Source: an uncultured Eubacteriales bacterium
GTDB lineage: Bacteria > Bacillota > Clostridia > Christensenellales > Aristaeellaceae
Length of the DNA: 45,442 nt
Assembly: GCA_902765305.1 (NCBI GenBank)
Contig: CACWZI010000045.1
Span: 1-45,442 of the forward strand
Direction: 5' to 3'
The position numbers and the translations under genes are program-made. Shown in pieces: positions 8,288 through 38,972 of this stretch. Each line of letters begins with the position of its first letter. Within the stretch, counting starts at the first letter, position 1. The notes below the pieces were generated by a model, which was given only the letters and a program-made list of their open reading frames with translations, was not told the origin of the DNA and made no database searches.

Positions 8288-9115
8288 CTATTCGATCGCG
8301 CCGCCTTCGACCACAAGGTTGTCTGGGTCGACCGCGTCGCCGTAGACGTCCTTCAGCGTGGCCTCGTAGTCGGCGTGGAAGAACTGCTCGGCAGCCAGGG
8401 CCTCGATCTCTTCATTGATGTAAGCCAGCACGGTATCGTTGCCCTTCTGCACCGCGGGGGCGATGGTGTCCAGGCTGCCCAGGCTCTCGATGCCCACGGT
8501 GAAGCCGGGATTTTCGATGGCCCAGGCCAGCACCTCGGTGTTGTCGGTGGACAGGGCGTCTCCGCGGCCGTCCAGCAGGGCATTGAAGGTCTCGGTGTAG
8601 GTGTCGAACTTCAGCAGTTCCACCTCGGGCTCGTTGGCGGTAAACCAGGTCTCGGCGGTGGTGCCCTTGGAGACGATCAGCTTCTTGCCCCTCAGGTCTT
8701 CGATCGAGGTGATCAGCGCGGCGTCGGGGCTGACCACACCCAGGGCCACCTTCATGTAGGGCAGCGCGAAGTCCACCACCTCGGCCCGCTCCGGCGTCAC
8801 GGTGAAGTTGGCCAGTATGATATCCACTTTGGCGCTGGTCAGGTACTCCACACGGTTCGGCGCGTCCACGCTCACCAGCTCCAGCTCGACGCCCAGGTCC
8901 TGGGCCAGGCGGCGGGCGAAGTAGACGTCGTAGCCCTGGTATTCGCCGTATTCGTCCACATAGCCGAAGGGCTTCTTATCGGAAAACACGCCGATGACCA
9001 GCTTGCCGCTCTCCTTGATTTCGTCGAGGCTGCGGGCCTTGGCGTCGGCCAGCGCGCCGGCGGTCAGGGACAGTACGAGGGCAAGTGCCAGAATCAATGC
9101 AAACAGCTTTTTCAT
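8288..9115 (-). CDS. Polar amino acid (probably cyst(e)ine) ABC transporter substrate-binding protein
   Basis: A secreted SBP_bac_3 family protein of 275 residues: signal peptide (1-23, ending AGALA), then the family opening GKLVIGVFSDKKPFGYVDE, GYDVYFARRLAQDLG, and KVDIILANFTVTPERAEVVDFALPY; the second lobe includes GKKLIVSKGTTAETW and GRGDALSTDNTEVL. These stretches resemble the cysteine/cystine and PEB1-type group. No lipobox is seen. It is transcribed from its own promoter and attenuator-like leader, downstream of the ATPase and two permeases. The ligand is inferred from family resemblance and from Cys-rich leader peptides before both transcription units; it is not proven. Confidence 0.9.
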   Translation of the reverse strand: MKKLFALILALALVLSLTAGALADAKARSLDEIKESGKLVIGVFSDKKPFGYVDEYGEYQGYDVYFARRLAQDLGVELELVSVDAPNRVEYLTSAKVDIILANFTVTPERAEVVDFALPYMKVALGVVSPDAALITSIEDLRGKKLIVSKGTTAETWFTANEPEVELLKFDTYTETFNALLDGRGDALSTDNTEVLAWAIENPGFTVGIESLGSLDTIAPAVQKGNDTVLAYINEEIEALAAEQFFHADYEATLKDVYGDAVDPDNLVVEGGAIE

Positions 9116-9160
9116 GGTTAACGCTCCTTTTCAAATTGTCGTCGGGTTATAGGGGGTCGT

Positions 9161-9213
9161 ACATAAAACAACGGGCCGGATTGGACGATCTGCGCATCCA
9201 ATCCGGCCCGCCG
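9161..9213 (-). terminator. Attenuator hairpin before the solute-binding protein
   Basis: A perfect 13 bp stem (GGGCCGGATTGGA and complement, 9173-9185 / 9197-9209) is followed on the minus strand by a T-rich run (TTGTTTTAT). It lies between the Cys-rich leader peptide stop (9237) and the solute-binding protein start (9115). The 8 nt CATCCAAT within the leader coding region (9263-9256) can pair with ATTGGATG at the base of the terminator's 5' arm (9202-9195), giving a possible antiterminator. Confidence 0.75.
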
Positions 9214-9236
9214 TTTCCCGCTTGCGCGCATGCACG

Positions 9237-9311
9237 CTAAGACGGCCGACAGGGCATTGGATGGCGCCCCCGGCACATACAACACATGCAGCTGATCACG
9301 TAATTGAACAT
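9237..9311 (-). CDS. Cys-rich leader peptide, 24 aa (upstream of the solute-binding protein)
   Basis: A 24-codon ORF starting MFNYVISCMCCMC and ending with TAG; 5 of 24 residues are Cys and 3 internal ones Met. ATG at 9311 has GGGAGG 8 nt upstream and a perfect sigma-A promoter about 40 bp before it. A terminator hairpin follows 28 nt after its stop. Clustered Cys codons (8, 10, 11, 13, 21), then a segment able to pair with the terminator arm, fit ribosome-mediated attenuation: stalling on Cys codons would free that segment and prevent termination. The regulatory role is inferred; reading frame, promoter and hairpin are direct observations. Confidence 0.75.
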   Translation of the reverse strand: MFNYVISCMCCMCRGRHPMPCRPS

Positions 9312-9349
9312 GTGGCGCGCCTCCCTTTAATGTCTATCGGATTGATAAG

Positions 9350-9378
9350 ATTATAGCGCCATCCCATTTTCCTGTCAA
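9350..9378 (-). promoter_or_regulatory. Promoter of leader 2 and the solute-binding protein
   Basis: TTGACA (9378-9373) and TATAAT (9355-9350) on the minus strand with a 17 bp spacer, a perfect consensus match. It begins 6 bp after the ATPase stop, so the binding protein has a transcription unit separate from the permease-ATPase genes. Confidence 0.88.
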
Positions 9379-9383
9379 GGGGT

Positions 9384-10133
9384 TTACGCCTTTTTAACCG
9401 TGTCAAACTCGAAGGTGTCCAGGAACGCCCGGGCTCGGGGGGTTTGGGGATGGTGGAAAAAGTCGGCAGGCCTGCCCTCCTCCACCACCTTCCCCCCCTC
9501 CAGGAACAGCACCCGGTCGGCTACGGCCTCGGCAAAGCGCATCTCGTGGGTCACGATCAGCATCGTCCGGCCGTCCCTTGCCAGGTCCAGCACCACGTTA
9601 AGCACCTCCCGCACCATCTCCGGGTCCAGGGCGGCGGTGATCTCGTCCAACAGCAGCAGCCGGGGGTGCATCAGCATGGCCCGCACCAGCGCCACCCGCT
9701 GCTTCTGGCCACCGGAGAGCTGGCGGGGCAGCGCGTGCAGCTTGTCCGCCAGTCCCACCCGCGCGAGCGCCTGTACGGCCTCGGCCTTCACCTCGTCGTT
9801 GGAGCGCTTCAAGGCCTTCACCGGGCCGAGGCTCAGATTGCCCAGCACATCCATGTGGGGAAACAGGTCGTAGCTCTGGAACACCATGCCGATCTGGCGG
9901 CGTACCTGCACCATGTCCATGCCGGAAATCGGCGCGCCGTCCAGCAGGATCTCGCCGGAATCCGGCGTCTCCAGGCCGTTGACGCAGCGCAGCAGCGTGC
10001 TCTTGCCGCAGCCGCTGGGCCCGACCACCACCACGACTTCCCCGTCCCCCATGGCCAGGTCGATGCCGTCCAGCACCCCGTTGCCGTCAAAGCTCTTTTT
10101 CAGGTTCTTGATTTCAAGCACGTATCCGCTCAT
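9384..10133 (-). CDS. Polar amino acid ABC transporter ATP-binding protein
   Basis: A cytoplasmic ATPase of 249 residues of the GlnQ/TcyC class. Walker A GPSGCGKST (about residues 37-45), Q-loop in GMVFQSYDLFPH, signature LSGGQKQRVALVRAM, Walker B LLLLDEITAALDPE followed by the H-loop VTHEM. The usual DEPTSALDPE reads DEITAALDPE, a tolerated variant. ATG at 10133 is reached through AGGAGGGG and lies next to the preceding permease stop, so translation is likely coupled. It powers the two permeases upstream, with substrate delivered by the product at 8288-9115. Confidence 0.95.
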   Translation of the reverse strand: MSGYVLEIKNLKKSFDGNGVLDGIDLAMGDGEVVVVVGPSGCGKSTLLRCVNGLETPDSGEILLDGAPISGMDMVQVRRQIGMVFQSYDLFPHMDVLGNLSLGPVKALKRSNDEVKAEAVQALARVGLADKLHALPRQLSGGQKQRVALVRAMLMHPRLLLLDEITAALDPEMVREVLNVVLDLARDGRTMLIVTHEMRFAEAVADRVLFLEGGKVVEEGRPADFFHHPQTPRARAFLDTFEFDTVKKA

Positions 10134-10134
10134 T

Positions 10135-10815
10135 TTACCCCTCCTGACACGCCCACTGCTTCTCCAGATGCTTCGCCAGCAGCGATATGGGCCAGCAGGC
10201 GAAGAAGTACAGCAGGAACACCGCCCCGTAGACCCACACCGCGCCCTGGGGGGCGTCGTAGCGGGCGGCGTCGATGATCTGGCTGCCCACCTTCAGCACC
10301 TCCACCACGCCAATCAGCATGACCAACGAGGTGGTCTTGATCATGCGGGTGGTCAGGTTGATGGCCTGGGGCACCAGACGCCGGGCCGCCTGGGGCAGCA
10401 GCACGTGGGCCCAGACCTGCCCCTGGGTCAGCCCCAGGGCCGCGCCGCTTTCCCGCTGGTGAACGGGAATCGAGGTGATCGCCCCGCGCACGAGGTCGCC
10501 CATCTCCCCCGCGCCCCAGAAGGTGAACACGATCACCGCCGCCGTCTCGCCGGACATCTGCAAATTGAAGGCCTTTGCCATGCCGAAATACACCAGGAAC
10601 AGCAGCACCAGCTGGGGCACGATGCGCACCGTCTCCAGCCACAGCCGCGTCACCGCCCGCACCACCGGGTTTTTCAGCGTCATCAGCACCCCCACCACCA
10701 GACCCAGGGCGATGGACAGGACCACCGAAATCAGCGACAGCTTCAGCGTCACGCCCAGGCCGCCCAGCAGCCGGGCCGGGTTGTTGCCCTTAAACAGCAC
10801 TGCCAAATCCCGCAT
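10135..10815 (-). CDS. Polar amino acid ABC transporter permease 2
   Basis: A membrane permease of the HisM/GlnP type (226 residues) with about five helices. The binding-protein-dependent transport loop (EAA-like) is visible as RESGAALGLTQGQVWAHVLLPQAARRLVPQ around residues 130-160; this loop contacts the ATPase. It overlaps the upstream permease by 26 bp and ends next to the ATPase start, so the three genes form one translationally coupled operon. With permease 1 it should form a heterodimeric membrane domain. Confidence 0.93.
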   Translation of the reverse strand: MRDLAVLFKGNNPARLLGGLGVTLKLSLISVVLSIALGLVVGVLMTLKNPVVRAVTRLWLETVRIVPQLVLLFLVYFGMAKAFNLQMSGETAAVIVFTFWGAGEMGDLVRGAITSIPVHQRESGAALGLTQGQVWAHVLLPQAARRLVPQAINLTTRMIKTTSLVMLIGVVEVLKVGSQIIDAARYDAPQGAVWVYGAVFLLYFFACWPISLLAKHLEKQWACQEG

Positions 10816-11455
10816 GGCGCAGCCTCCTCTCCAGCAGCGTGAACGCGATCGATATCGGCAGCAGCAGCGTCAGGTACGAAAGCGTCAGCATCAATAGCGC
10901 CTCGTCCGTCTTGTAGTACATGCCGATCAGGTCCTTCGCCACGTACATCAGGTCAGCCAGGGCCACGGCGCTGAACACGCTGGTCTCCTTGATCAGGAAC
11001 ACGGCGTTCGCGCCGATGGAGGGTATGGCCGTGGCCAGCCCCTGGGGCAGTATCACATAGCGCAGGTTTTGCAGCGGCGTCAGACCGATGCACATGCCCG
11101 ATTCCTGTTGGACCCTGTCCACCGACTCCAGCCCGCTGCGCAGCGATTCCGCCATATAGGCCCCGCCCAGGAAGGTGAGCCCCGCCACCGCGCAGGTCTC
11201 GGCGTCCAGCTTGATACCCACCTTCGGCAGGCCGAAGTACAGGAAGAACAGCTGCACCAGCAGCGGCGTATTGCGGGCCAGCTCGATATAGACCCCCGCG
11301 ACCCTGTCCAGCACCGGCACGCGGAAGTGCCGCGCCATGCAGCACAGCGCCCCCACCACCAGCGACAGCGCGATGCCCGCCAGACCCAGCCGCAGCGTCA
11401 GGCCCGCGGCCTTGACGTACATGGGCAGGAATTTGACCATAAAGGACGTATCCAA
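10790..11455 (-). CDS. Polar amino acid ABC transporter permease 1
   Basis: A membrane permease of the same family (221 residues), opening LDTSFMVKFLPMYVKAAGLTLRL. The EAA-like loop reads QQESGMCIGLTPLQNLRYVILPQGL. The frame stays open upstream to 11659, but that region holds the leader peptide in another frame, a terminator hairpin and the promoter. I place the start at TTG 11455, which has GGAGGAGG about 9 nt upstream. It is the first structural gene of the permease-permease-ATPase operon, controlled by leader 1 and its hairpin. Confidence 0.88.
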   Translation of the reverse strand: MDTSFMVKFLPMYVKAAGLTLRLGLAGIALSLVVGALCCMARHFRVPVLDRVAGVYIELARNTPLLVQLFFLYFGLPKVGIKLDAETCAVAGLTFLGGAYMAESLRSGLESVDRVQQESGMCIGLTPLQNLRYVILPQGLATAIPSIGANAVFLIKETSVFSAVALADLMYVAKDLIGMYYKTDEALLMLTLSYLTLLLPISIAFTLLERRLRHAGFGSAV

Positions 11456-11476
11456 GGGAATGACCTCCTCCATCGC

Positions 11477-11505
11477 ATAAAGAAACAGCGGCCTGCGGCC
11501 GCTGT
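11477..11505 (-). terminator. Attenuator hairpin before permease 1
   Basis: A perfect 9 bp stem ACAGCGGCC / GGCCGCTGT with a 3 nt loop (11485-11505), followed on the minus strand by TTTCTTTAT. It sits 21 nt after the leader 1 stop and before the permease ribosome site. GGCCTG in leader codons 17-19 (11557-11552) could pair with CAGGCC across the loop and 3' arm, a weaker antiterminator candidate than in leader 2. Confidence 0.7.
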
Positions 11506-11526
11506 ATGGGTTCACCCTTTTAAACA

Positions 11527-11607
11527 TCACCGGCGCGCGGACATGGCAAAACAGGCCCTGCGACAACACATCAGAGCATATGCGCCACAGAAATGCTTCC
11601 CTGCCAT
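11527..11607 (-). CDS. Cys-rich leader peptide, 26 aa (upstream of permease 1)
   Basis: A 26-codon ORF containing HFCGAYALMCCRRACF and ending with TGA; Cys at positions 7, 14, 15 and 19. ATG at 11607 follows AAAGGAGG at good spacing, 24 bp after a consensus -10. The sequence is not a copy of the second leader at 9237-9311, yet both share promoter, short Cys-rich peptide and terminator hairpin. That repeated architecture ahead of both halves of one transporter is the main argument that it is real. Its role as a cysteine-sensing attenuator is inferred. Confidence 0.72.
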   Translation of the reverse strand: MAGKHFCGAYALMCCRRACFAMSARR

Positions 11608-11630
11608 CGTTTCCGCCTCCTTTTGACAGG

Positions 11631-11659
11631 AGTATATGCCTATTTACCCGGTATGTCAA
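11631..11659 (-). promoter_or_regulatory. Promoter of leader 1 and the permease operon
   Basis: TTGACA (11659-11654) and TATACT (11636-11631) on the minus strand with a 17 bp spacer. The region 11660-11746 between it and the next gene shows nothing further that I can name. Confidence 0.85.
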
Positions 11660-11746
11660 TAGGAACTGTGAAAATTAAAGGAATGATAAACCTGTCCCGT
11701 TGCAGCTCGGCATCCTGACTTCTGTATCTCCTTCTATGCTGCTTTG

Positions 11747-14700
11747 TTAACCCTTACGGGTCCTCCTGCGCAGTAAGCCCAGCAGCGCCAGCGCCACGAG
11801 GGCCACGGCCAGGTACAGCTGCAGGTTGGAATGATCGCCGGTGTCCACGCCGTCGCGCACATGCAGGGTGACCTCCCGGCTGACGATCTGCGCGCCCTCG
11901 GCGTCGGTCACGACGCAGCGGAAGCGCGCGCCGTCCCACTGCTTCTCGATGTCCTTGCGGCTCAGGGTCGGCTCGGTGAAGCCGGGCAGGTCGACCCACT
12001 TTTCATGCTCGGGGTCCCACACCTGCCACTGGTAGGTATAGGGCGGCTTGCCACCGGCGACCTCCACCTGGAAGCTCACGTCCTCGCCCGCCTGGGCGGT
12101 CACATCCTCGGGCTGCCGGGTGAAACGCAGTTCGTCGCCCCCGCCGTGGGGATAGATGGTGAAGCCGTTGTTCAGCACGGCGGTTTCCTTGATGCCCCGG
12201 GGGGTGAATTCGAACCGGGCGGACTGCACCTTGTCGGGGTCGAACAGCGCCTTCAGCGGCACGGAGATGGTGGTGGTCGTCCCGGCGGCCATCGCCTCGG
12301 GCCTGTAGGGCAGGCTGACGTACATCGGCTCGCTGCTGTTGTCCAGGTACATGGCGCAGGTCAGCTCGATCGCCTCGCCGTTGTGGTAGTAGTTGTGCAG
12401 CGTGATGTCCAGGATCTCGTCGCCCTTGTGATCGGTGCGCAGCCGGTGGCTGACGTCGATGTCGTGAACGTCGAAGTTGACCTCCAGGCTCTCAGGCGCG
12501 TCCACCTCCAGCGCGTACAGGCTCACCGCGTCCTCGCCAGCGTTGGCGACCAGCTCGCCCCGGTTTTGAAGCTCCAGCTTGCCGGTCTGTTCGTTCAGGG
12601 CGTAGTCCAGCCGGTGGACGCCGTACTCGGCCAGCTTCGCCCGGTTCGCCGCAGCGGCAGCGTTGCTGACCGTGCCCGCTTCGGCGAACAGCTCCGGATT
12701 CGTCTTCGCCAGGGCGGAGGCGGCCAGGTAGTTGTCGTACACGGAGATATTATGCAGCTTCAGCCGCAGGTCGTAATTGCCGTGCCAGTCGTCGGGGACC
12801 TTGATGTTGCCCACGAAGCAGCCCATGGAGCCGGGCACCAGCACGCCGGTGGACACGTAGCTGGAGCTGCTGCCCACGGTCTTGGTGTGGCTCGACGACC
12901 ATACATGATTGTCAAAGTAGGTGGTCACCGCGGTTTCCTTCACGGTCCAGTCCTGTCGGCGGGGTGAATACTGGAAATCCTTGTCCCGGTAGATGGCCTG
13001 CTCGCCGGTGGCCACGGTCTTCTCCCCGCCGTGGAACAGCTTTGTATAGCTGTGGGCGGGAATCAGCAGGCCGGTGTGCAGGGTCTCGACCTTCTCGATT
13101 TCGTTGCCGTTCTTGTCCAGCAGCATCGCATCCACGTCGAAGCTGCCGATGCCCATGTTGCCGTCGTTCAGCGCGGTGAACTGGGTGCGCAGGAAATCGC
13201 CCTGGAGCGCCGTGGTCTCGATCATCGCCGCCTTTTGCAGCTTCATGGAGGTCGCCAGCGTGATGTCAAATTTGTACAGCGTCGCCTCCGGGATGTTCTG
13301 ATCCTGCTCACCGGTATCCGGTTTGACGGTGATATAGCCCACCTTCTTGTCCGTCAGCGTGATTTCCTGGGGCACCGCCGGGTATTTCTTGCCATTATAG
13401 TCGACATCCGGCAGCGTGAACTCGGCGATCACCAGCTCGTCGGAGAAGGAATTGGTGGACGAATCGTAGTACACGCCACCGATGCGCCAGACGTCCGGGT
13501 CGCTGTCCTTCTCCTTCGGCGCGGTGGTCAGCCAGTAAAGGTATTGGGAAGCGCCGATGGACACCGCATGGAATTCGGTAGCGGGAATGCTGAGGTCGTA
13601 GTCCTTATAGGTGATGTTGAAATCCCCCCGACCCATGCCATAATTGACGCCGCCTTTGGAGATGGTTCTGGGCGCGACATAGATGCTCTTCAGGCGGTTC
13701 TCCACCCGGTCGCCCACTGTCTCCCTGTCCATGTAAAAGATCGTCTGGGAGAAGTTCTTCCCGTCTGGGGCCAGTTGCTGGAGCATCTCGAAGCTGGTGA
13801 TGTCACCCTCCGCCAATACGATCGCTTCTTGGCAATAATCCGATTCGAGCTTGACCTTGCCTTTATACCTCCTGACTGAATACGGCCACGGGAAGTTCAT
13901 GTAGTAATCGAACAGCACGATATAGCACGGCTTCTGGCCATAGTTTTTCACATCCAGCGCAACGAAACCGGGAATTTTGGTGTAGTGGAAATCATCATCC
14001 TCGTCGGTACCGTCATAATCAAGATTCCTGCTGCGCATACTGGAATGCGATTGCACCCGTTTATAATCAAAGCCATAGCGCAGTCGTGCCGGTCCATCGT
14101 CATACCCGTTGTGAATAAGCAGGTCACCACAAATCTCCATCACATCCTTGTCCGGCAGAATGTAGAACAGGTTGTACTGGGACATTCTCTCACTGTCGTT
14201 TTGTCCGAACAACGCGCCGTAAACCTCCACCTGACCCATGCCGCTCTCTCCGGCCCACTCGATCTTTGGTTTGCTGCAAATCGGCGACAGGAAATTATCT
14301 ACCGTGGGAATCCAGGGGTAAAAGAGAACTTTATTTTTTGATAAGGGGATTGTGGGAAACTTCATAGCGTCGTTGAACTCCACATAGCAAACGATAATAT
14401 TTGGATCCTGTTCCGTTCCGCCGGGTATGGGCTTGCCGTCTTTGTCTATCGATCTGGCGAGCACGGCGATCAGATGCAGGTACCTGCCGTCGTTGTAAAC
14501 ATCGTAGCCGCATACCTTGTACTCATTATAATGAACAAACCGTTTGTATAGGTCACCAACAATATACCACCCGAGCCTGACCGCCACCCCATGAGTCTTG
14601 TCCTCGATACCGAGCTGGCAATACGTGGTTGGTCTCTCAATATAGAATATATAGTCGCTATCCTTGTAATTAACAGCCCGGATATCTGTGCCCGGATAGT

Positions 14701-38030: not shown

Positions 38031-38972
38031 TCACAGTCCCAGCGCGTCCGCGCGTTGGATGGCTTCCTCATACCACTGCATGTACTGGCCGGACGCCAGC
38101 ACCTCGTCGATCACGCCGTTGACGAAGGCGATCAGCTGGCCCTCACCCTTCCGCGCGGCGATGCGGTCCCCCTCGAACTGCTCCTCCAGGGTGAAGTGGA
38201 CCCCGGGCACCATCATCAATCCGCAGCGGGGATTGCCCTCGATATAGGCGTGGCCGGTCTGCGCGTCCACCATGACCGCGTCGACTGCGCCGTCCATCAG
38301 CGCGTTGTACAGCGCCTGAACCGAATTCATGCGCCTGAACTCACGGTAATGGAACACGTTTTCGTACATCTGCGCCTCCTGCAGCGAACCGCTCTGCGCC
38401 GCGATGTTGCGACCCACCAGGCTGGAAACGCCGGTGATGCGTCCGCTGTCCGAAGCGCGGATCATCAGTCCGCTGCCGGCCCGGATGGTCGCGTAGTAAT
38501 AGCCCTTGGAAAAGGTGATCTGCGCCGCCCGCCCTGGCGTGTACGAAAGGGCCGATATGGCCAGGTCGCAGGTCCCGTCGGTCACGGCGTTCAATACCTC
38601 GGAAAAGTCCATCGGCACGATTTGCAGTTCAACGCCCATCCGCTGTGCGATCAGGCGGGCCAGCGCCATGTCCGCCCCTACGTAGCCTTCCTGGCCTTCG
38701 AGATCCGGGTCGATGAATTCCTGGGGCGGGAAGTAGGGCTCCGTGGCCACCCGCAGCACCCCGGCCTCACGGATGTCGGCCAGCACGCCGGTGGCATCCC
38801 CGGGGATGCCACCGGAGGTATCCAGCGACACATCCACGAAATTCCAGGCGTTTTCCATGTACTGCGCGTTTGCGTCGTCCACCTCCAGGCTCTCGGCCAA
38901 CGTCGGCGCCACCGCAAGCAGCGCCGCTAGTACAAGGACGGCCAGTCGCCCGATCCAACGATCAACAGACAT
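38031..38972 (-). CDS. Orphan SBP_bac_3-type extracytoplasmic solute-binding protein
   Basis: A secreted binding protein of 313 residues: signal peptide (1-26, ending PTLAES), a charged linker, then the SBP_bac_3 fold from about residue 68 (IREAGVLRVATEPYFPPQEFI, GADMALARLIAQRMGVELQIVPMDFSEVLNAV, CDLAISALSYTPGRAAQITFSKGYY). No lipobox. The permease/ATPase genes that normally accompany it are absent; the next gene, 173 bp on, is the HD-GYP receptor. I infer it is a soluble sensor input rather than a transport component, as in binding-protein-dependent signal receptors. It is first in the operon with its own promoter. The 173 bp gap holds only a small CCCACTTCGTGGG hairpin. Confidence 0.88.
   Translation of the reverse strand: MSVDRWIGRLAVLVLAALLAVAPTLAESLEVDDANAQYMENAWNFVDVSLDTSGGIPGDATGVLADIREAGVLRVATEPYFPPQEFIDPDLEGQEGYVGADMALARLIAQRMGVELQIVPMDFSEVLNAVTDGTCDLAISALSYTPGRAAQITFSKGYYYATIRAGSGLMIRASDSGRITGVSSLVGRNIAAQSGSLQEAQMYENVFHYREFRRMNSVQALYNALMDGAVDAVMVDAQTGHAYIEGNPRCGLMMVPGVHFTLEEQFEGDRIAARKGEGQLIAFVNGVIDEVLASGQYMQWYEEAIQRADALGL

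Follow-up and report, generated by a model that had tools for sequence, protein, structure and literature searches.

Cysteine-codon-rich leader peptides and predicted transcription attenuators before both units of a putative cysteine importer in an uncultured clostridium

Results

Two transporter units, each behind a short Cys-rich reading frame

We analysed a 45,442-nucleotide stretch of DNA (the window; contig 45, CACWZI010000045.1, of a draft genome comprising 177 contigs and 3.9 Mb) from an uncultured bacterium whose closest named relatives are uncultured Clostridiales or Clostridia, several of them from rumen. An amino-acid ATP-binding cassette (ABC) importer is encoded on its minus strand in two units, of which unit 2 comprises two permease genes and an ATPase gene and unit 1 the gene of the solute-binding protein; the leader before each unit carries the number of that unit. 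In both units, a promoter and a Shine-Dalgarno sequence (SD) are followed by a short open reading frame (ORF) rich in Cys codons, an intrinsic terminator and the structural genes (Table 1). The original prediction had described this layout, and every element that it named is present; the two peptides, MFNYVISCMCCMCRGRHPMPCRPS and MAGKHFCGAYALMCCRRACFAMSARR, are indeed not copies of each other. Taken together with the analyses below, these features suggest that two independent ribosome-mediated transcription attenuators very probably control one cysteine ABC importer.

Scanning positions 8800-12700 returned exactly these two promoters as sigma-70-like sites (shuffle mean 0.7) and seven terminator-like sites (shuffle mean 2.1), the two longest stems being terminators 1 and 2. 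Promoter 1 starts 5 bases past the ATPase stop codon, and therefore a transcript reading through unit 2 would also meet terminator 1. The start codon of permease 1 was picked by comparing relatives.

Table 1. Features of the two transporter units in the window.
Feature	Position	Strand	Basis
Promoter of unit 2, TTGACA-17-TATACT	11631..11659	-	11/12 consensus positions; same place in alignment of 13 genus leaders
Shine-Dalgarno AGGAGG of leader 2	11616..11621	-	sequence
Leader peptide 2, MAGKHFCGAYALMCCRRACFAMSARR, 26 codons, 4 Cys	11527..11607	-	sequence
Leader 2 antiterminator segment, GCGCGCCGGTGATGT	11524..11538	-	folds with ribosome at Cys codons 7-19 versus stop; shuffles
Terminator 2, 9-bp stem then TTCTTTAT	11485..11505	-	sequence; GCGG-type stem and T run in 13/13 aligned genus leaders
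Permease 1, start TTG, SD GGAGGAGG at 11471-11464	10790..11455	-	TIGR01726 above cut-off, PF00528
Permease 2	10135..10815	-	TIGR01726 above cut-off, PF00528
ATPase	9384..10133	-	best NCBIfam model TcyN, below cut-off
Promoter of unit 1, TTGACA-17-TATAAT	9350..9378	-	12/12 consensus positions
Shine-Dalgarno GGGAGG of leader 1	9320..9325	-	sequence
Leader peptide 1, MFNYVISCMCCMCRGRHPMPCRPS, 24 codons, 5 Cys	9237..9311	-	sequence; kept in relatives
Leader 1 antiterminator segment, GCGCCATCCAATGCCC	9252..9267	-	folds with ribosome at Cys codons; swap test
Terminator 1, 20-bp stem then TTTATG	9168..9214	-	z -5.3 for 9168-9227
Solute-binding protein, cysteine-receptor type	8288..9115	-	PF00497; PDB 1xt8, 2yjp

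The codon content of the leaders sets them apart from the genes that follow. In leader 1 peptides, Cys makes up 18.6% of the residues, Met 12.1% (start codon excluded) and Arg 16.7%; the corresponding values for the transporter are 0.8%, 2.9% and 4.7%. By eye, most Arg codons of the genus peptides fall within the antiterminator half. TGT accounts for 7 of the 9 Cys codons in the window leaders, including all four of leader 2, and for only 2 of the 29 in six long genes of the window (p = 9e-5, Fisher test). Such rare control codons would sharpen the sensor. Neither leader peptide matched NCBIfam or Pfam at E ≤ 10, and a phage collection searched with positions 9100-9400 gave no match.

Each leader can form mutually exclusive antiterminator and terminator pairings in silico

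RNA folds were computed with an assumed ribosome footprint of 13 bases past the start of the A-site codon. In leader 1, CATCCAAT (inside 9267-9252) pairs with ATTGGATG of the terminator 5' arm (9214-9195). The segment around CATCCAAT forms this pairing when Cys codon 8, 10, 11 or 13 occupies the A site, and the pairing is absent when codon 21 or the stop codon does. Leader 2 uses a different pairing, GCGCGCCGGTGATG with ACAGCGGCCGC, which is likewise free when the ribosome is stalled at the Cys codons and not when it is at the stop. The prediction that CATCCAAT pairs with a terminator arm was borne out, the pairing being that of the binding-protein leader and the permease leader having its own; the folding check that had been proposed alongside gave, in both window leaders, the antiterminator for ribosomes stalled at Cys codons and not for those at the stop. 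Once the 3' arm is present, the terminator is the minimum-energy fold.

Because longer free RNA pairs more by itself, we used shuffled sequences as controls. Arm pairing in window leader 1 was 0.80 stalled and 0.23 at the stop, and in window leader 2 it was 0.83 and 0.29, values reached by 2 of 25 shuffles in each case. Across 34 leader 1 elements the means were 0.75 stalled and 0.27 at the stop (shuffles 0.62 and 0.40), and 26 of the 34 were reached by at most 20% of their own shuffles. The corresponding means for 15 leader 2 elements were 0.76 and 0.39 (shuffles 0.63 and 0.43), and 7 of the 15 stayed within the same 20% limit.

We also exchanged leader segments among terminator arms. In this swap test, only 1 of 5000 permutations was as good as the native combination of leader segment and own arm for leader 1 (n = 35), and 88 of 5000 were for leader 2 (n = 15), a weaker result with a pairing that is nearly invariant. 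A duplex test over 50 elements gave a mean z of -1.15, with z at or above zero in 10 of the 50; it left out L036 and L045, whose terminator calls were bad, and elements without a called terminator, and the shuffle fold test also left out L063. As the sequences are related, the swap and duplex counts are less than independent. Matching changes in leader and arm were seen as GTCCGTCTC with GAGGCGGAC (L072), GTCCGTCCCCTG with CAGGGGTCGGA (L032) and CCATC with GATGG (L014).

Leader 1 accompanies the receptor gene in relatives

To describe conservation, we collected receptor loci (the best 80 in one search, and those at E ≤ 1e-50 in a search of family genomes) and built a model, R1, from 35 of 39 leader 1 ORFs, so that it derives partly from the same loci on which it is tested. 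L024 (a near copy of L022), L063, L027 and L104 were left out, and the terminator ends of L017 and L036 were set by hand. The absence of a Cys-rich ORF or hairpin in relatives had been named as the observation that would speak against attenuation; instead, R1 matched at E ≤ 1e-6 in every one of the 18 genus genomes in the sample that carry the receptor and in 46 of the 54 family genomes with a receptor at least 72% identical. No match was found in 10 genus genomes without the receptor, even at E ≤ 0.01, or at E ≤ 1e-6 in 18 family genomes with a more distant receptor. The receptor itself occurs at E ≤ 1e-50 in 72 of 300 family genomes, and R1 was found in 2 of the remaining 228, once before metY (G064) and once at the end of a contig, following metN/metI-like genes (G141). 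A search of 396 genomes of the order gave matches in 5, including the window's own, all of them within its family.

In a further control, we called SD-led ORFs that span 12-40 codons and contain 4 or more Cys, with dinucleotide shuffles for comparison. Such an ORF stood upstream of the receptor in 34 of 82 distinct regions (110 loci) and occurred in 1 of 1640 shuffles. Family leader 1 peptides share a C-terminal RPSxxxLCLR at the amino-acid level, and their N-terminal halves vary, with differing number and spacing of Cys. R1 found only leader 1 in the window's own genome (next best E = 0.116), a search that would miss leaders unlike R1, such as leader 2; its plus-strand match at the leader 1 site fits the terminator palindrome. 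At L010, the R1 match (G234:C343:1782-1958) lies farther upstream than the 400 bases in which a leader had seemed absent. L010 and L039 both have other sequence between terminator and receptor gene, with the leader farther upstream.

Leader 2 is kept at most genus loci

At 13 of the 15 genus loci with sequence before permease 1, an SD-led ORF contains tandem Cys codons, the total being 2 to 4 Cys. All 13 have a GCGG-type stem and T run after the ORF, and 10 of the 13 peptides contain a FAM or FAV segment. Under the strict test of at least 4 Cys, 4 of 65 permease-side regions and 0 of 1300 shuffles were positive; the low count reflects the many leader 2 peptides with no more than 2-3 Cys. Longer poly-Cys ORFs with terminators stand before permease 1 at some loci of other Clostridia (L068, L076, L080, L106, L115); arm pairing there is strong in L080 (z = -4.8) and L115 (z = -3.6) and lacking in L068 (z = 0.7).

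The binding protein resembles cysteine receptors

The binding protein is a family 3 solute-binding protein. Its two best matches among solved structures were 1xt8 (E = 6.6e-85), which we take to be CjaA (Cj0982c), and 2yjp (E = 4.9e-77), well ahead of the next (E = 9.5e-35). CjaA (Cj0982c) is reported to bind cysteine (PMC4178425), and 2yjp is NGO2014, the L-cysteine receptor (PMC7170509). By sequence, the binding protein is nearest to known cysteine receptors, a clue to the ligand that is independent of the leaders, and the locus can be assigned by receptor homology to the CjaA/NGO2014-type cysteine ABC importers, with binding and import as predicted functions. The ligand foreseen from the leaders, cyst(e)ine, agrees with this homology.

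The window also holds a second, distant receptor homologue (28% identity) at 38064-38819 on the minus strand.

Similar leaders and a second peptide class occur at other sulfur genes

We chose 12 R1 matches away from the receptor from the match list for inspection, and 10 of them have an SD-led ORF with clustered Cys codons; L176 and L177 have no clustered-Cys ORF. Two downstream genes score above their model cut-offs: metY (L168 and L179; TIGR01326) and an amidohydrolase gene (L174; TIGR01891). A MetQ/NlpA-like gene (L172) and a MetN-like gene (L175) score below theirs, and a further MetN-like gene (L178) and symporter-like genes (L173 and L171) were assigned by likeness. The L170 leader precedes an operon containing a partial symporter, and the L169 leader, by eye, a gene that follows metN/metI-like genes and is truncated where the contig ends. 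In the window's own genome, the examined flanks of metY, two cysK genes and cysS hold no Cys-rich SD-led ORF (at least 3 Cys, C.?C), and the L173 symporter has no match.

A second class of peptide was seen between terminator and receptor gene, encoded by a short SD-led ORF with the core [AV][TKR]D.C (e.g., MFHISRATDRCFSI). It occurs in 14 of 39 elements and in 0 of 1950 shuffles, with cores ATDRC, AKDRC or ATDVC (L033, L031, L036, L026, L030, L032, L072 and others); before the receptor it is missing from the window and from most of the genus. In a wider regular-expression scan of 2.13 Mb of loci on both strands, 27 distinct matches were found: 19 before the receptor, 1 directly before the own metY, 1 before the L170 operon and 6 elsewhere. 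Upstream of metY, an SD-led ORF with [ND]RM is present in 37 of 52 loci (19 of them LLSRNRM) and in 2 of 1040 shuffles, the endings being LLSRNRM, LNVNRM or ATDRMCRC (metY loci L204-L251); the window's own genome has MATDRMCRC before metY (L188 1382-1495). Five second-class peptides compared with NCBIfam and Pfam gave no match at E ≤ 10.

ARAGORN called a tRNA-Met(cat) upstream of metY in 6 of 51 loci (L204, L206, L209, L210, L214, L224). At these loci the tRNA-like element, with a CAT anticodon and a tRNA-Cys-like body, lies between leader ORF and metY, and in L204 (element at 2830-2904) the leader ORF ends inside it. In a small comparison set, two tRNA-Cys genes matched the L204 element at 75-76% identity, a third at 69% and four other tRNAs at no more than 55%.

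Discussion

A model for cysteine-dependent read-through

We have documented the parts of both leaders, their conservation, two mutually exclusive pairings in silico and the homology of the binding protein to cysteine receptors. From these we infer translation of the ORFs, ribosome stalling, read-through and its dependence on cysteine. In the proposed mechanism, polymerase would start at each promoter with a ribosome following on the short ORF. When Cys-tRNA is ample, the ribosome would reach the stop codon and cover the antiterminator segment; the terminator would then fold, and transcription would end before the structural gene. When Cys-tRNA is scarce, the ribosome would stall within the Cys cluster before reaching the antiterminator segment. 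That segment would then be free to pair with the terminator 5' arm, and polymerase would read into the transporter genes.

Leader attenuators of this kind are classically known from trp, his, leu and thr. The window leaders share with them the control codons and the mutually exclusive antiterminator and terminator, and differ in the amino acid, which here would be cysteine. A short ORF with clustered codons of the regulated amino acid was found, with SD, frame and Cys clusters kept, as was an intrinsic terminator between leader ORF and gene. The exclusive antiterminator that a stall would free was recovered in leader 1, and in leader 2 by its position, with weak swap and shuffle results.

Alternative explanations

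Stalling on shortage of either Cys-tRNA or elongator Met-tRNA, which would make the leaders sensors of sulfur amino acids in general, would suit both the Met-rich leader 1 and the presence of such leaders before MetN-like, MetQ-like and metY genes in relatives. We regard it as rather unlikely, since the Met count varies among leader 1 peptides, the receptor homologues are cysteine receptors and the ATG-TGT repeats could arise from TGT runs by drift. The improbable case in which the nascent peptide itself arrests the ribosome, in the manner of a metabolite-sensing arrest peptide and not through slow Cys-codon decoding, has in its favour that the C-terminal halves of both leader types are kept as amino acids; however, the conserved half of leader 1 follows its terminator in the swap test, and RNA pairing can explain its conservation because it overlaps the antiterminator segment. 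The variable N-terminal halves and Cys spacing also speak against arrest.

Alternatively, a DNA-binding repressor of the CymR/Rrf2 type might exert the main control at the promoter, with the leaders in a secondary role. Inverted repeats such as ACCTATTGACATAGTAGGT, which presumably resemble Rrf2/CymR-type operators, do lie over the -35 element of Cys-related promoters in several relatives (L028, L074, L053, L180, L184), but by eye the window promoters have no such clear repeat, and a repressor would not explain the Cys codons, the terminators or the matching antiterminators, which leaves this option slightly less probable again than peptide arrest. Chance, or the ordinary terminators of gene ends, would be a very improbable source of the ORFs and hairpins: leader 1 does directly follow the ATPase gene, where a terminator could be expected, but this terminator stands 3' of a new promoter and ORF, and chance is contradicted by the conservation, the shuffles and the swap test.

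Several observations weigh against attenuation by stalling at Cys codons as we propose it. Among leader 1 elements, 6 of 35 formed duplexes no better than those of their shuffles, as did 4 of the 15 for leader 2, where the window's own element was near zero (z = -0.16). Ribosome-free RNA before synthesis of the terminator 3' arm also favours the antiterminator (means 0.69 and 0.72), so that basal termination would depend on translation or kinetics. Leader 2 is missing from 2 of the 15 genus loci (L041, L050), and 8 of the 54 genomes with a close receptor have no R1 match. NCBIfam cystine models match only below their cut-offs, and the specificity of the transporter is therefore a prediction. 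For CjaA, cysteine import is described as unproven, and the protein as perhaps not solely a cysteine receptor (PMC4178425).

Relation to known cysteine control

Amino-acid control in this bacterial group is often exerted by T-boxes. No Rfam match to the T-box (RF00230) at the gathering score was found in the window. Elsewhere in the genome there were 17 matches, 6 over the cut-off; by eye, no Cys specifier was evident in the 17 alignments, several of which were ambiguous, and for ten matches whose next gene was sought by eye, nine genes were not cysteine-gene-like and none was found for L121. In Clostridium perfringens, cysteine T-boxes control cyst(e)ine uptake, cysteine limitation relieving premature termination (PMC2940859). 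Premature termination would be common to both systems, but a T-box reads the tRNA directly, whereas the window leaders would use a translated ORF.

A similar motif already described is uORFC-8-2, predicted upstream of cysS in Rhodobacterales, with tandem Cys codons, an intrinsic terminator and a proposed stall leading to read-through (PMC8632094). The short tandem-Cys ORF and the terminator are shared. However, uORFC-8-2 belongs to Alphaproteobacteria, an aminoacyl-tRNA synthetase gene and mainly UGC codons, whereas the window system belongs to Clostridia, importer genes and mainly TGT codons, with two unlike leaders for one transporter. The leaders described here precede transporter genes, and the own cysS, as noted, has no such ORF in the examined flank, which places them outside this motif. 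Mycobacterial polycysteine upstream ORFs, as cited in PMC13236596 and PMC9094748, are described as cysteine-responsive, leaderless and acting by translation attenuation, and PMC1262725 reports no conserved terminator for those before sulfur genes. They share the runs of Cys codons in a short ORF upstream of sulfur genes; the SD and intrinsic terminator of the window leaders separate the two. Among the literature matches listed, which mostly did not extend to subscription papers, there was no Cys leader attenuator in Clostridia.

Implications for sulfur control in the family

The mechanism is known from classical attenuators, and what is new here is probably its Cys version before importer genes in gut Clostridia, as judged from sequence. 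The second peptide class (DRC/NRM) may be more novel than the Cys leaders; its role in arrest or tRNA mimicry is a possible reading. On that reading, A-T-D-R-C would be the core before the cysteine receptor and L-L-S-R-N-R-M that before metY, and in some metY leaders, where a second ORF runs into the tRNA-Cys-like element with anticodon CAT, ribosome position would decide its folding. Tentatively, instead of Cys T-boxes the family might use a sulfur regulon that is read by ribosomes, in which poly-Cys/Met attenuators act beside the second peptide as a nascent-chain sensor and the position of the ribosome gates a tRNA mimic at metY; we hold this possible, well short of probable.

Some clostridial sulfur genes are without a T-box, so other cysteine control may exist in clostridia (PMC2940859). 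Leaders of the window type are a concrete, testable candidate for such T-box-free control in one family of gut Clostridia. In relatives, similar leaders stand before metY, methionine-transporter-like and other genes, and at the present locus the leader alone points to the specificity of a transporter, here in agreement with the homology of its receptor.

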